From Iodidimonas sp. SYSU 1G8 (GTDB lineage Bacteria > Pseudomonadota > Alphaproteobacteria > SMXS01): 64,000 nucleotides of DNA. The translations under genes were made by a program, and so were the position numbers. The stretch covers positions 62,001-126,000 of the forward strand of contig NZ_JBBYXJ010000002.1 in the NCBI RefSeq assembly GCF_039655775.1. The letters are read 5' to 3'. Numbering within the stretch: position 1 is the stretch's first letter; the number at the start of each line of letters is the position of its first letter. A model generated the notes under the pieces. That model saw only the letters and a program-made list of their open reading frames with translations. It was not told where the DNA came from and did not search any database. Shown here piece by piece: positions 36,622 to 60,515 of this stretch.

Positions 36622-37215
36622 CTAATCGAAATCCGCGGCCAGGGCCGCGCGCGTGGCGGGCGAGAGCATGGCCATGTGCTGATAGCCCTCATGACCGATA
36701 CCAAGGATCACCGGCGTCGCCGGATCCCGGAACGCCGCGATCGCCTCGGGCGTGAACGGGAAGTGCAGGAAGTGCACCGACGAGGTCTTGCCGTCGGCGG
36801 TGGTGCGGTCGACATCCTCTTCCGCCTTGCCGGTCACTACATGCCCGCCCATGGTGAAGGTGACAGTCTGCTCGACGCCAGCCAGCTTGCCGAGCACGCG
36901 GCGGCGCCGGTTCTCGTCGTCGATCTCGAACATCATGGTGGCGATCAGTTCGCTGCCCTGCGGGATCAGCGGATTGTAGGCGGCCAGTTCATCGGCGATC
37001 TGTTCGTCGCCGCCCTTCTCGATGTAGAGCATCTCGTGAATCTGGAGCCACATGGTTTCGTAGCTCTCGAAGTAGAAGGTCACGTAAGGCCCGACCTCGA
37101 TGCGGCGGTGCTTCTTCCGGCTTACCACCTCAGCGCGTTTTTCCTTGCGGACCTTGCCGTACTCGGCGGTGGGCAGGATGTCCGCGCGGGTGATCTGTCG
37201 CGGATGTGCGGTCAT
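36622..37215 (-). CDS. DUF3501 family protein
   Basis: A 197-residue protein matching DUF3501: ITRADILPTAEYGKVRKEKR near the start (quoted in part), GPYVTFYFESYETMW, a central EIDDENRRRRVLGKL and a C-terminal VHFLHFPFTPEAI. The function is unknown. It is commonly the last gene in a cluster with rubrerythrin and a GlpC-like Fe-S protein, exactly as here. ATG at 37215 with AAAGGAAAG upstream is the likely start. The open frame further upstream lies partly in the previous gene. Confidence 0.9.
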   Translation of the reverse strand: MTAHPRQITRADILPTAEYGKVRKEKRAEVVSRKKHRRIEVGPYVTFYFESYETMWLQIHEMLYIEKGGDEQIADELAAYNPLIPQGSELIATMMFEIDDENRRRRVLGKLAGVEQTVTFTMGGHVVTGKAEEDVDRTTADGKTSSVHFLHFPFTPEAIAAFRDPATPVILGIGHEGYQHMAMLSPATRAALAADFD

Positions 37216-37256: not shown

Positions 37257-38597
37257 CTAAAGCTGGATACCGTAGGCCAGCGCCATCAGTTCCATGGGAT
37301 GATACGACCGGGCCGGCGTCTTGGCCTTGTCGATGCGTTCCATGCCCTGCAGCATATGGTCCGCCGCCAGCGGACATTCGCTCGACAGATAGGCCTTGCC
37401 CTGTTTCACGGCGTTCTGGGCGGCGGGCTTGCCGACCTTGAGGGCCACCTCGAAATTCTCGGTCATCATGCCCCACGAACCGCCATGGCCGGAACAGCGC
37501 TCGATCACCGAGACGTCCGGCTCGGGCAGCAGGCGCAGCATCTCGGCTGCCTTGGGCCCCATGTTCTGCGCGCGCGCATGGCAGGCCAGATGCACCGTGA
37601 CGCCGCCGGGCAGGCTTTGCAGTCCGTCGGCCAGGCCGTTCTTGCGCGCGATGTCGACGATGTATTCGGCGGCGTCGAAGGTGGCGCCGGAAACCGTCCG
37701 AACCGCCGGATCATCCGGAAGGATGAGCGGCCACTCGAATTTCAGCATGAGCGCGCAAGACGGCACCAGCGCGATGACGTCGTAGCCCTTCTCGATCCAG
37801 GGCACCAGTTCAGCCGTGACGATGCGGGCATTCTCGGCGACGCCCTCGAGATTGCCGTGTTCCATCATCGGCATGCCGCAGCACTTGGGATAGACCACTT
37901 CGGTCTCGACCCCGTTGCGCGCCAGCACCGCCTGGGTGGCGACGCCGATGTCCGGATTGTTGTAATTGGCGAAGCAGGTGGCGTAGAGCACTGCCTTGCG
38001 GCCGTGCGCCGGCGCCTGGGGGTTGACCGCGGGCGGATTCTTCTTCGCCCGGCGGACGAAGGTGTCGCCGTGGAATTTCGGGACAATCGCCTTGCGGTCG
38101 ACGCCGGCGACCTTTTCCATGACCGGCCGGGTCAGTCCGTTGTCCAGATCGGTCGCCCAGTTGGCGATCGGCGCGACCGCGCCGAAGAGCTTGCCGTTCC
38201 GGTCGGTTTCGACCAGCTGCTCGCGGACGAAATCCTTGTGACCGTGTTTCCGCTCGGCGGCGCGGTAGCGCAGCATCAGATGCGGGAAGTCCAGATTGAA
38301 TTCGTGCGGCGGCACGTAAGGACATTTGGTCATGAAGCACAGATCGCAGAGCGTGCACGCATCCACGACCGGCTTGAAATCGGCGCTGGCCACCGAATCC
38401 AGTTCCATGGTTTCGGAGGCATCGACCAGGTCGAACAGTCTGGGAAAGGAATCGCAGAGGTTGAAGCAGCGGCGGCAGCCGTGGCAGATGTCGAAAACCC
38501 GGCGCATCTCCTCGTCCAGCTTCTCGGCATCGTAAAAATCCGGGTTGTTCCAGTCCAGCGGATGGCGGACCGGTGCGTCGAGACTGCCCTCACGCAT
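37257..38597 (-). CDS. Fe-S oxidoreductase of GlpC/heterodisulfide reductase type
   Basis: A 446-residue protein with two 4Fe-4S motifs near the N-terminus ([15 protein letters not shown] and [13 protein letters not shown]). Two CCG-type cysteine-rich domains follow, with [11 protein letters not shown] and [10 protein letters not shown] plus [11 protein letters not shown]. This is the arrangement of GlpC and HdrD-like electron-transfer subunits. No catalytic flavoprotein partner is adjacent, so its redox partner may be the rubrerythrin. It lies between the rubrerythrin (85 bases upstream) and DUF3501 (41 bases downstream). Confidence 0.9.
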
Positions 38598-38682: not shown

Positions 38683-39102
38683 TTACGAGCCCAGGCTGTC
38701 CAGAGCCTTCTGGAAACGGCCGGCGTGCGAACGCTCGGCCTTCGCCAGCGTCTCGAACCAGTCGGCGATTTCGTCGAAGCCTTCTTCGCGCGCCGTGCGC
38801 GCCATGCCCGGATACATGTCGGTGTATTCGTGGGTTTCGCCCGCGATGGCGGCCTTCAGGTTCAGCGAGGTCTCGCCGATCGGCTCACCGGTGGCCGGAT
38901 CGCCGACTTCCTCGAGGAATTCGAGATGGCCGTGGGCGTGGCCGGTTTCACCTTCCGCGGTGGAGCGGAACACGGCGGCGACATCGTTGTAGCCTTCCAC
39001 GTCGGCCTTCTGCGCGAAATACAGATAGCGACGGTTGGCCTGGCTTTCGCCGGCGAAAGCGGCTTTCAGATTGTCTACGGTCTTGGACCCGGCAAGTGAC
39101 AT
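38683..39102 (-). CDS. Rubrerythrin (short, without rubredoxin domain)
   Basis: A diiron protein that reduces hydrogen peroxide. The 139 residues form the four-helix bundle with the two iron-binding halves: [17 protein letters not shown] with [12 protein letters not shown], and [13 protein letters not shown] with [10 protein letters not shown]. The C-terminal rubredoxin domain of classical rubrerythrins is missing, so electrons must come from another protein, possibly the Fe-S protein next door. ATG at 39102 has a strong AGGAG site. An ICE box and promoter lie upstream. Confidence 0.93.
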
Positions 39103-39184
39103 GATGATCTCCTGAACTAGTGGTTCTGTGTTCCCCGGCCTCCGGAAAGGCCCCAGCACGACGAACGGACGCCGGCGTGACGTT

Positions 39185-39214
39185 ACTATCACACCCTGAG
39201 CCAAGCATGGTCAA
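39185..39214 (-). promoter_or_regulatory. Promoter of the rubrerythrin operon
   Basis: On the minus strand, TTGACC (-35, at 39209-39214) and GATAGT (-10, at 39185-39190) are 18 bases apart, giving a leader of about 75 bases. The -35 begins two bases after the ICE palindrome ends. Confidence 0.55.
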
Positions 39215-39216
39215 GA

Positions 39217-39241
39217 CTTATTTAGAATGATTCTAAATAAG
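39217..39241. promoter_or_regulatory. ICE-type operator (Irr box)
   Basis: A perfect palindrome with 12-base arms and one central base (CTTATTTAGAAT, G, ATTCTAAATAAG). Its core TTTAGAA-N3-TTCTAAA at 39221-39237 equals the iron control element bound by Irr in rhizobia and relatives. It lies 19 bases past the irr stop and directly upstream of the rubrerythrin promoter. Confidence 0.85.
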
Positions 39242-39260
39242 CTCGGAGAGGATTGGGAAA

Positions 39261-39689
39261 CTATTCGTCCTGCAGCCGGAAGACGATGTCCATGCGGGCG
39301 ATCCGGCGGCCGTCGGGCGCCTGTGGCAGCCCGGCGACAGTAACCTGATCGGCGGGGATATCGGTCAACTGGCCGGATTTCTCGCACAGGAAGTGGTAAT
39401 GATCGCCGATGTTGGTATCAAAATAGGTTTTACCGGCATCCACCATGATTTCGCGCAATAGGCCGGCATCCGTAAACTGGTGCAGCGTATTGTAGACCGT
39501 CGCCAGCGAGACGCGGGCCCCGGACTGCTGCGCTTCCTCGTGCAGCGTCTCGGCTGTCACGTGACGGTCGTAGCCCTGCTCGAACAGCAGCTTCGCCAAG
39601 GCCAGGCGCTGGCGCGTGGGCCGCAGATCCGCTTCGCGGAGGCGGGCGATCGCTTGGGCATAGGGACGTTCGTTCATGGTCCAGTCCAT
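39261..39689 (-). CDS. irr: Iron response regulator Irr (Fur family)
   Basis: Irr is the alphaproteobacterial Fur-family protein that senses iron through heme status and acts when iron is scarce. The protein is 142 residues from ATG at 39689 (a second ATG lies at 39677). It has the DNA-binding half READLRPTRQRLALAKLL and ATVYNTLHQFTDAGLLRE, then DHYHFLCEKSGQL. The single CEKS cysteine in place of the CxxC zinc motifs of Fur fits Irr. The N-terminal heme regulatory motif (GCP) of Bradyrhizobium Irr is absent. A sigma70-like promoter whose -10 overlaps the upstream in-frame ATG at 39731 rules out that start. Confidence 0.9.
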   Translation of the reverse strand: MDWTMNERPYAQAIARLREADLRPTRQRLALAKLLFEQGYDRHVTAETLHEEAQQSGARVSLATVYNTLHQFTDAGLLREIMVDAGKTYFDTNIGDHYHFLCEKSGQLTDIPADQVTVAGLPQAPDGRRIARMDIVFRLQDE

Positions 39690-39729
39690 CGAAGGATGCG
39701 CGGGTGAGCGCAAGCTGCGCATCACTCTC

Positions 39730-39759
39730 ATTAGATTGACTCCAGATTGCGAAAGTCAA
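39730..39759 (-). promoter_or_regulatory. Promoter of irr
   Basis: On the minus strand, TTGACT and TCTAAT are separated by 18 bases, about 40 bases before the preferred irr start codon. No ICE box overlaps it, so autoregulation through that motif is not evident. Confidence 0.55.
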
Positions 39760-39841
39760 GCGGACGGCGGATCAAGGCGGCACTAACGCACACCCGAGGC
39801 GTTCGCCTCGTGTCGCGATCGGACAGAAAAGGGAGCGCCAC

Positions 39842-60095: not shown

Positions 60096-60515
60096 TCAGG
60101 AACCTTCCTTGGCCAGCGGAACCCCATAGAGCTCGAGCCGGTGATCGACCAGCTTGTAGCCCAGTTCCCGGGCGATGAATTCCTGCAGCTTCTCGATGTC
60201 CTCGTTGCGGAATTCGATCACATTGCCGGTATGAACGTCGATCAGGTGATCGTGATGGCGCTCGGGCACTTCCTCGTAGCGCGCGCGGCCATCCCGAAAG
60301 TCGTGACGCTCCAGAATGCCCGCTTCCTCGAACAGCCGGACGGTCCGGTAGACCGTCGCGATACTGATATGGCTGTCGATCTTGGCGGCGCGGGCGTAGA
60401 GCTCTTCAACGTCGGGATGGTCCGTGGCTTCCGAAAGCACCCGGGCAATCACCCGGCGCTGATCGGTCATCCGCATTCCCTTGTCCACACACAATTGTTC
60501 GAGACGGTCCGGCAT
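60096..60515 (-). CDS. fur: Fur family transcriptional regulator (Fur/Mur type)
   Basis: A metal-dependent repressor of 139 residues. The winged helix contains RMTDQRRVIARVL and SIATVYRTVRLFEEAGILE. Metal ligands are seen in VPERHHDHLIDVHTG. No CxxC zinc motifs are present, as in alphaproteobacterial Fur/Mur proteins that often respond to manganese. Whether it acts as Fur or Mur cannot be read from the sequence. It lies between mucR and plsC. Confidence 0.9.
   Translation of the reverse strand: MPDRLEQLCVDKGMRMTDQRRVIARVLSEATDHPDVEELYARAAKIDSHISIATVYRTVRLFEEAGILERHDFRDGRARYEEVPERHHDHLIDVHTGNVIEFRNEDIEKLQEFIARELGYKLVDHRLELYGVPLAKEGS

Follow-up and report, generated by a model that had tools for sequence, protein, structure and literature searches.

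ICE/Irr boxes have been described in Bradyrhizobium japonicum and Rhodobacter sphaeroides (mbfA, bfr, ccpA), and Irr is known mainly as a heme/iron regulator of rhizobia, Brucella and Rhodobacter. PerR regulons of Gram-positive bacteria comprise rubrerythrin, katA, ahpC and dps/mrgA, and the palindrome recognized there, of a 7-1-7 type, is similar to ICE. Binding of R. sphaeroides Irr to the mbfA and ccpA boxes in vitro is documented in PMC3413700. That Irr resembles PerR has also been noted earlier, PMC8638967 pointing to a shared aspartate, a missing CxxC and overlapping targets. ICE boxes, Irr itself, and control by Irr of a rubrerythrin-domain protein, MbfA, are already known.

The locus considered here lies in the window (the whole 64,000-nucleotide stretch of Iodidimonas sp. 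SYSU 1G8 DNA that was analysed). With the B. japonicum and R. sphaeroides systems it shares the core palindrome and the regulator family, and the Irr targets in those species are, as at this locus, ferritin-like or peroxide-reducing proteins. A literature search to which RegPrecise and the main Irr-regulon prediction paper were external yielded no account of an irr-rubrerythrin operon carrying an ICE; Irr regulons were reportedly predicted in 2006 by Rodionov et al., whose work may list some irr-rbr sites.

The palindrome and its neighbors

Reading along the minus strand the order is irr, palindrome, TTGACC, GATAGT, rbr, CCG-domain protein and DUF3501 protein, with the following features.

39261..39677, minus strand: irr, Fur superfamily, 138 aa (NCBIfam profile scores)
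39217..39241, minus strand: candidate ICE/Irr box, a perfect 12+1+12 palindrome (direct sequence reading)
39209..39214, minus strand: −35-like TTGACC, 2 nt after the palindrome and 6 nt after its core (promoter scan)
39185..39190, minus strand: −10-like GATAGT, spacer 18 (promoter scan)
38683..39102, minus strand: rbr, rubredoxin-less (sulerythrin-type) rubrerythrin, 139 aa (profile and PDB comparison)
37257..38597, minus strand: Fe-S/CCG-domain protein (GlpC-like), presumed second gene of the operon (profile matches)
36622..37188, minus strand: DUF3501 protein, presumed third gene of the operon (profile match)

Between irr and rbr the minus strand from 39241 to 39217 reads CTTATTTAGAATCATTCTAAATAAG, its arms CTTATTTAGAAT-C-ATTCTAAATAAG being paired at all positions of the 12+1+12 palindrome, and inside it, at 39237-39221 (minus), is a perfect TTTAGAA-N3-TTCTAAA, which we take to be the published ICE core consensus. 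The first-pass annotation had described just such a palindrome with an ICE core, and its coordinates and description were correct on direct reading, as was the positioning claimed for it: two bases, 39216-39215, separate 39217 from the plausible −35, TTGACC, and irr closely precedes the palindrome in the same orientation (its stop codon is at 39261 and the ATG of rbr at 39102, everything being on the minus strand). When the 158-bp intergenic stretch was shuffled 20,000 times by mononucleotide, the palindrome arm never exceeded 10, and no perfect palindrome with a longer arm was found anywhere in the window. The window has a single match to the ICE pattern at ≤3 mismatches, where 0.07 are expected. 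The TTGACC/GATAGT pair has 9/12 promoter matches in the promoter scan; an alternative −10, TGATAG with a spacer of 17, was picked out by eye.

A genome scan for further ICE motifs, which the same annotation had proposed, gave 3 sites at ≤2 mismatches in the 3.92 Mb genome (2 contigs), against 1 for the reversed-pattern control, and two of the cores are perfect, the irr-rbr site and C2:18026. The shorter pattern TTAGAA-N3-TTCTAA, at ≤2 mismatches, has 13 sites in the genome versus 24 for its reversed control. A broad Irr regulon in this genome was rejected given so few 17-mer sites and a short core below its reversed control.

The second perfect ICE (G000:C2:18026-18042; L001:1501-1517) is outside the window, 5 nt before TTGACG and upstream of a DUF2061 membrane protein. 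It is kept with one mismatch in the congeners G001 and G004 (L194, L195), 7 nt before TTGACC, in a count that leaves out L196, a third congener with a close DUF2061 protein; so the genus appears to have a small second ICE target at the DUF2061 gene. Further downstream of the DUF2061 box, L194 and L195 have a TTGCGAATTACTCGCAA palindrome.

As to the proteins, the ferritin-like diiron domain of rbr matches PF02915 with 108 bits (cut-off 22.8). The 139-aa product covers positions 3-144 of 194 in NF045767 with 135 bits, below the cut-off of 200, and the C-terminal rubredoxin domain of classical rubrerythrin is absent from it. It is called rubredoxin-less because of that partial coverage and because its best fits are chains of 140-169 residues and sulerythrin, the E values against short rubrerythrins/sulerythrin in the PDB (1j30, 4di0, 9onm) being 5.5e-52 to 1.1e-70. 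Both the CCG protein and the DUF3501 protein are within the fetched flanks at 76 of the 80 named rbr loci considered below, and the rbr-CCG-DUF3501 trio is conserved with or without irr; the three genes are presumably co-transcribed.

The regulator scores above the cut-offs of both the IrrA model NF045678 (210.8 bits; cut-off 150) and the Irr model NF045677 (190.7 bits; cut-off 170), and its 42-78 bits to PerR models are below their cut-offs of 180-250. An N-terminal heme regulatory motif belongs to B. japonicum-like Irr only and is not required of Irr; the window Irr has no CP dipeptide in this respect, and among the 79 Irr proteins compared, which are those found in rbr loci, CP occurs only in L078 and L114. 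The window Irr does have a putative heme-binding HxH motif, H93-Y94-H95, both histidines of which are kept in 78 of the 79, the remaining one being a gap. A profile search with PF01475 found three Fur-superfamily genes in the genome. One of the other two is in the window at 60126-60482 (minus), ∼20 kb from irr, with 131.6 bits to PF01475, and is probably Fur/Mur; a second Fur-superfamily match akin to it is often present in G001-G012.

Recurrence of the layout, and what the box follows

Of 60 relatives, counting the genome of the window itself, rbr is matched at E <1e-50 in 31; irr is in 29 of the 31, and in 28 of the 29 having both the two genes are <500 bp apart on the same strand. Eighty named loci, with titles nearly all of Alphaproteobacteria and ranging from Kiloniellaceae and Parvibaculum to SAR11, were added for a total of 110 rbr loci, or 109 distinct ones on dropping L087, a duplicate of L037 upstream. 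Identity of rbr to the window protein is 80-98% across 27 aligned loci. At 78 of the 109, irr precedes rbr in the same orientation at a distance of up to 1.5 kb (L079 and L051, with irr 1.0 and 1.4 kb off, being counted), and there the box is present at ≤3 mismatches in 74/78 (2.1% in mononucleotide shuffles) and at ≤2 mismatches in 61/78 (0.24%). The best ICE match has no mismatch at 16 of these loci, one at 23, two at 22, three at 13, four at 3 and six at 1, leaving 4/78 with no box at ≤3 mismatches.

The relation of box to promoter is also kept. TTGAC/T is 2-7 nt beyond the core at 64 of the 74 box-bearing irr-linked loci and out of its reach at 10, with a gap of 3 nt at 39 loci, 4 nt at 9, 5 nt at 7, 6 nt at 7, 2 nt at 1 and 7 nt at 1; in the window and its congeners it is 6 nt. 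(The comparison of promoter and box placement leaves out L034, L054, L063 and L076.) The irr-box-TTGAC-rbr layout extends to four SAR11 single-cell genomes (L100, L102, L112, L120). Some orthologous rbr promoters differ in that the box lies on the −10 or follows it: L159, L178 and, for the second of their boxes, L037, L087 and L079. These last three carry a series of three boxes, two perfect, distributed on both sides of the TTGAC −35. That the irr-box-rbr arrangement recurs in many related bacteria suggests that peroxide defence may be a core part of Irr control.

Does the box follow the regulator or the target? Where irr does not adjoin rbr, a box at ≤2 mismatches is present in 5/31 loci. 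A whole-genome irr search for these 31, with a clear irr taken as E <1e-30, placed irr elsewhere in six genomes, three with the box (L104, L119, L125) and three with none at 2 mismatches (L083, L096, L099), and in genomes without a clear irr the box occurs at 2 of 25 rbr loci (L068, L129). With irr adjoining or clear in the genome, 64/84 rbr loci have the box at ≤2 mismatches versus 2/25 without (Fisher p 7.5e-10, a value that ignores shared ancestry, the species being non-independent); counting L068 and L084, whose irr-like matches are weak (E ∼1e-20), as having irr makes it 65/86 versus 1/23. L068 and L084 have a variant palindrome, TTAGACT-N-AGTCTAA, before rbr, and the only irr-like protein of each genome is 32-34% identical.

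Nature has also provided a deletion experiment. In the congener G002 (L146, C5:18000-21500) the search found no match to rbr, irr is kept at 86-87% identity, and box and −35 have decayed, the site reading TTTAGAGTTTATCTAAG, with 3 mismatches, followed by TTGGCC instead of TTGACC. This decay where rbr was lost and irr kept, a single case, argues that the box would serve rbr rather than irr. Six irr-less loci of Novosphingobium and other sphingomonads (L080, L091, L095, L108, L118, L122) have a palindrome of TTGCGAAT-N-ATTCGCAA type 110-155 nt upstream of rbr, possibly a swap of regulator. The principal claim of the first-pass annotation, that the palindrome is the ICE/Irr box of the rubrerythrin operon, finds strong support in this comparative record of gene order, −35 distance, irr co-occurrence and congener decay.

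The sign of control, and rival readings

The scheme envisaged is that an Irr dimer, product of the adjoining upstream irr, would bind the palindrome as its operator and so control the promoter of the rubrerythrin-CCG protein-DUF3501 operon. In its DNA-binding state Irr, lodged against the −35, would hinder RNA polymerase; on its inactivation by heme/iron or peroxide the peroxide-reducing, iron-binding rubrerythrin would be made. By analogy and from the co-occurrence with irr, Irr very probably binds the window palindrome. The signal may be heme, Fe(II) or H2O2. Given binding, repression is fairly likely to be the sign, and the reading as a whole, an Irr operator at which Irr would repress the rbr operon, is one we hold with moderate confidence.

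It had been sound to leave activation as well as repression open, as the first-pass annotation did on account of a palindrome upstream of, and not over, the core promoter. Our leaning to repression is based on the orthologous rbr boxes on or after the −10, on boxes near gene starts (at several dps, ahpC and katG genes the ICE is 12-35 nt before the start codon), and on R. sphaeroides, in which, according to PMC3413700, mutation of irr raises expression of mbfA ∼8-fold and of ccpA 1.8-fold when iron is limiting, the ccpA start lying ∼40 nt downstream of the box. Were the same operator and the same Irr to activate, Irr bound before the −35 under iron limitation would raise rubrerythrin and, at boxes over −10/+1, repress, a dual regulator whose sign is set by box position. 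A kept box-to-−35 distance is not required by simple occlusion, and the placement of the box 2-7 nt before TTGAC/T in 64/74 loci, at 3 nt in 39 of them, is a hint of polymerase contact and so of activation. Four of 5 sufB sites share this placement (the four being from one genus); the review PMC7762939 has Irr repress or activate according to ICE location; and in Ca. Pelagibacter ubique under iron limitation rbr mRNA is up 1.57-fold and suf ∼2-fold (PMC2864753). However, the spacing differs by 5 nt among loci, about half a helical turn, the box is on or after the −10 in some orthologs, many of the −35/−10 pairs are, by eye, near consensus, and the R. sphaeroides ccpA that rises in the irr mutant has its box upstream of the start (PMC3413700). 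The idea that a fixed geometry proves activation was rejected, the gap being 2-7 nt and some boxes being on or after the −10. Activation is on balance unlikely.

Other readings dispense with Irr as the ligand, or with protein binding altogether. With three Fur-superfamily genes in the genome, a Fur/Mur-like protein such as that encoded at 60126-60482 might be the one that uses the palindrome, and the different palindrome upstream of rbr in irr-less Sphingomonadales suggests that rbr can be under other regulators; but the ICE tracks irr (the 64/84 versus 2/25 loci above) and irr-less genomes with a Fur-like match are usually without an ICE, which makes use of the window palindrome by another regulator improbable. 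As RNA the palindrome could form a strong hairpin (−16 kcal/mol, z −4.0) and might act in that form, or as a terminator, where the irr mRNA ends (3′). Yet no terminator-like site was found in 39080-39800, the 7-3-7 core is what is conserved, at a set distance from TTGAC and with flanks often unpaired, and in the congener that retains irr without rbr the site has decayed; we consider a role as RNA highly improbable, and a terminator or hairpin at the end of irr was discarded as a candidate, with no terminator-like site there and conservation following the box sequence and its −35 distance.

ICE sites across the class and the likeness to PerR

Returning to Irr as the probable occupant of the box, what else stands behind such boxes? 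Searching 385 genomes of the class for the exact ICE core gave 60 sites, spread over 52 of the genomes. All 60 were fetched and ORFs starting within 350 bp classified, sites being assigned by blastp (E 1e-8) to references taken from the same loci; ten of these references were named by NCBIfam, five of the ten also by Pfam, with several under NCBIfam cut-offs (Dps, AhpC, catalase, di-heme enzyme). Peroxide-defence genes are behind 41 of the 60 (rbr 17, dps 12, ahpC 6, katG 4, catalase 1, di-heme-peroxidase-like 1), and Fe-S assembly or iron storage/export genes behind 10 (sufB 5, Rrf2 regulators of isc/suf type 3, bacterioferritin 1, MbfA 1). An irr-like Fur-family gene, scoring below the Irr cut-offs, accounts for one, and 8 have another or no telling neighbor (L001 with DUF2061, L154 with a solute-binding protein, L155, L157, L169, L173, L177 and L187). 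The genes behind ICE are those expected of a peroxide/iron-defence regulator and not the rhizobial heme-synthesis/iron-uptake set. At L134, L151, L152 and L153, from four genomes of one small-genome genus, the ICE is 5 nt before the TTGACA of sufB, which is divergent from a dinucleotide-binding dehydrogenase-like gene.

Irr, at E 1e-18, is found in 46 of the 52 genomes having a perfect ICE versus 239/385 overall, the six with no match at that threshold being G069, G084, G096, G198, G200 and G216. By hand count the reversed pattern has 39 matches in 31/385 genomes versus the 60 in 52 for ICE, and in genomes ≥3 Mb it has 3 versus 36. In small genomes the raw number of ICE sites is not beyond chance, so the class-wide case rests on which genes the sites precede; since an exact-core search finds the best sites only, it does not describe whole regulons.

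These targets are one side of a likeness to PerR and the regulator's metal site is the other. H39, D87, H93, H95 and D106 of the window Irr align with H37, D85, H91, H93 and D104 of B. subtilis PerR (2fe3), which we take to be the five regulatory metal ligands of that protein, and they are kept in 77, 78, 78, 78 and 79 of the 79 Irr, respectively, the remainder being gaps. The CxxC structural-zinc motif is in none of the 79 rbr-linked Irr (0/79). Filing the window Irr as a PerR was ruled out by its PerR-model scores and the missing CxxC.

The compact ‘iron-status circuit’ of the first-pass annotation keeps its Irr box at a rubrerythrin operon; ‘iron-status’ is probably too narrow, because perfect boxes in the class mostly precede peroxide-defence genes. 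On the strength of those targets and of the five PerR ligands kept in Irr, the circuit looks like a PerR-type peroxide/iron defence that would be run by Irr. A bolder and tentative extension, possible though we would sooner doubt it, is that in much of the class Irr acts as PerR, with the irr-ICE-rubrerythrin unit a widespread core to which dps, ahpC, katG, catalase and Fe-S assembly were added in one lineage after another, with a PerR-like metal site that could sense peroxide directly, and with the rhizobial heme/iron-uptake regulon a later expansion.

Should these comparisons be borne out, Irr has as one of its widely conserved targets a peroxide-reducing rubrerythrin whose gene sits beside irr, and ICE sites in this class have more to do with peroxide defence than with iron uptake. 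On the class-wide pattern Irr would then be seen, across many lineages, as a defence regulator akin to PerR, which is of specialist interest. Does Irr sense peroxide at its PerR-like metal site, and did it originally serve that purpose? The question is now a testable one, the irr-box-rbr unit being small (one regulator, one box, one operon) and present in culturable Parvibaculum and Sneathiella as well as in SAR11 single-cell genomes.

Set beside the systems with which we began, the window locus departs from B. japonicum and R. sphaeroides in that irr adjoins its target, in that the genome has only two perfect sites, and in that the target is a free-standing rubredoxin-less rubrerythrin in place of MbfA or bacterioferritin. 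From sulerythrin and the short rubrerythrins (1j30, 4di0, 9onm), with which it shares length class and diiron domain, the window rbr differs only in its genetic setting behind an Irr box. From PerR the window Irr is set apart by its scores, which clear the Irr cut-offs and fall far short of those for PerR, and by a CxxC missing from 79/79; PerR and Irr meet in a target list that overlaps the class-level ICE targets and in the five regulatory-metal ligands of B. subtilis PerR, conserved in Irr.
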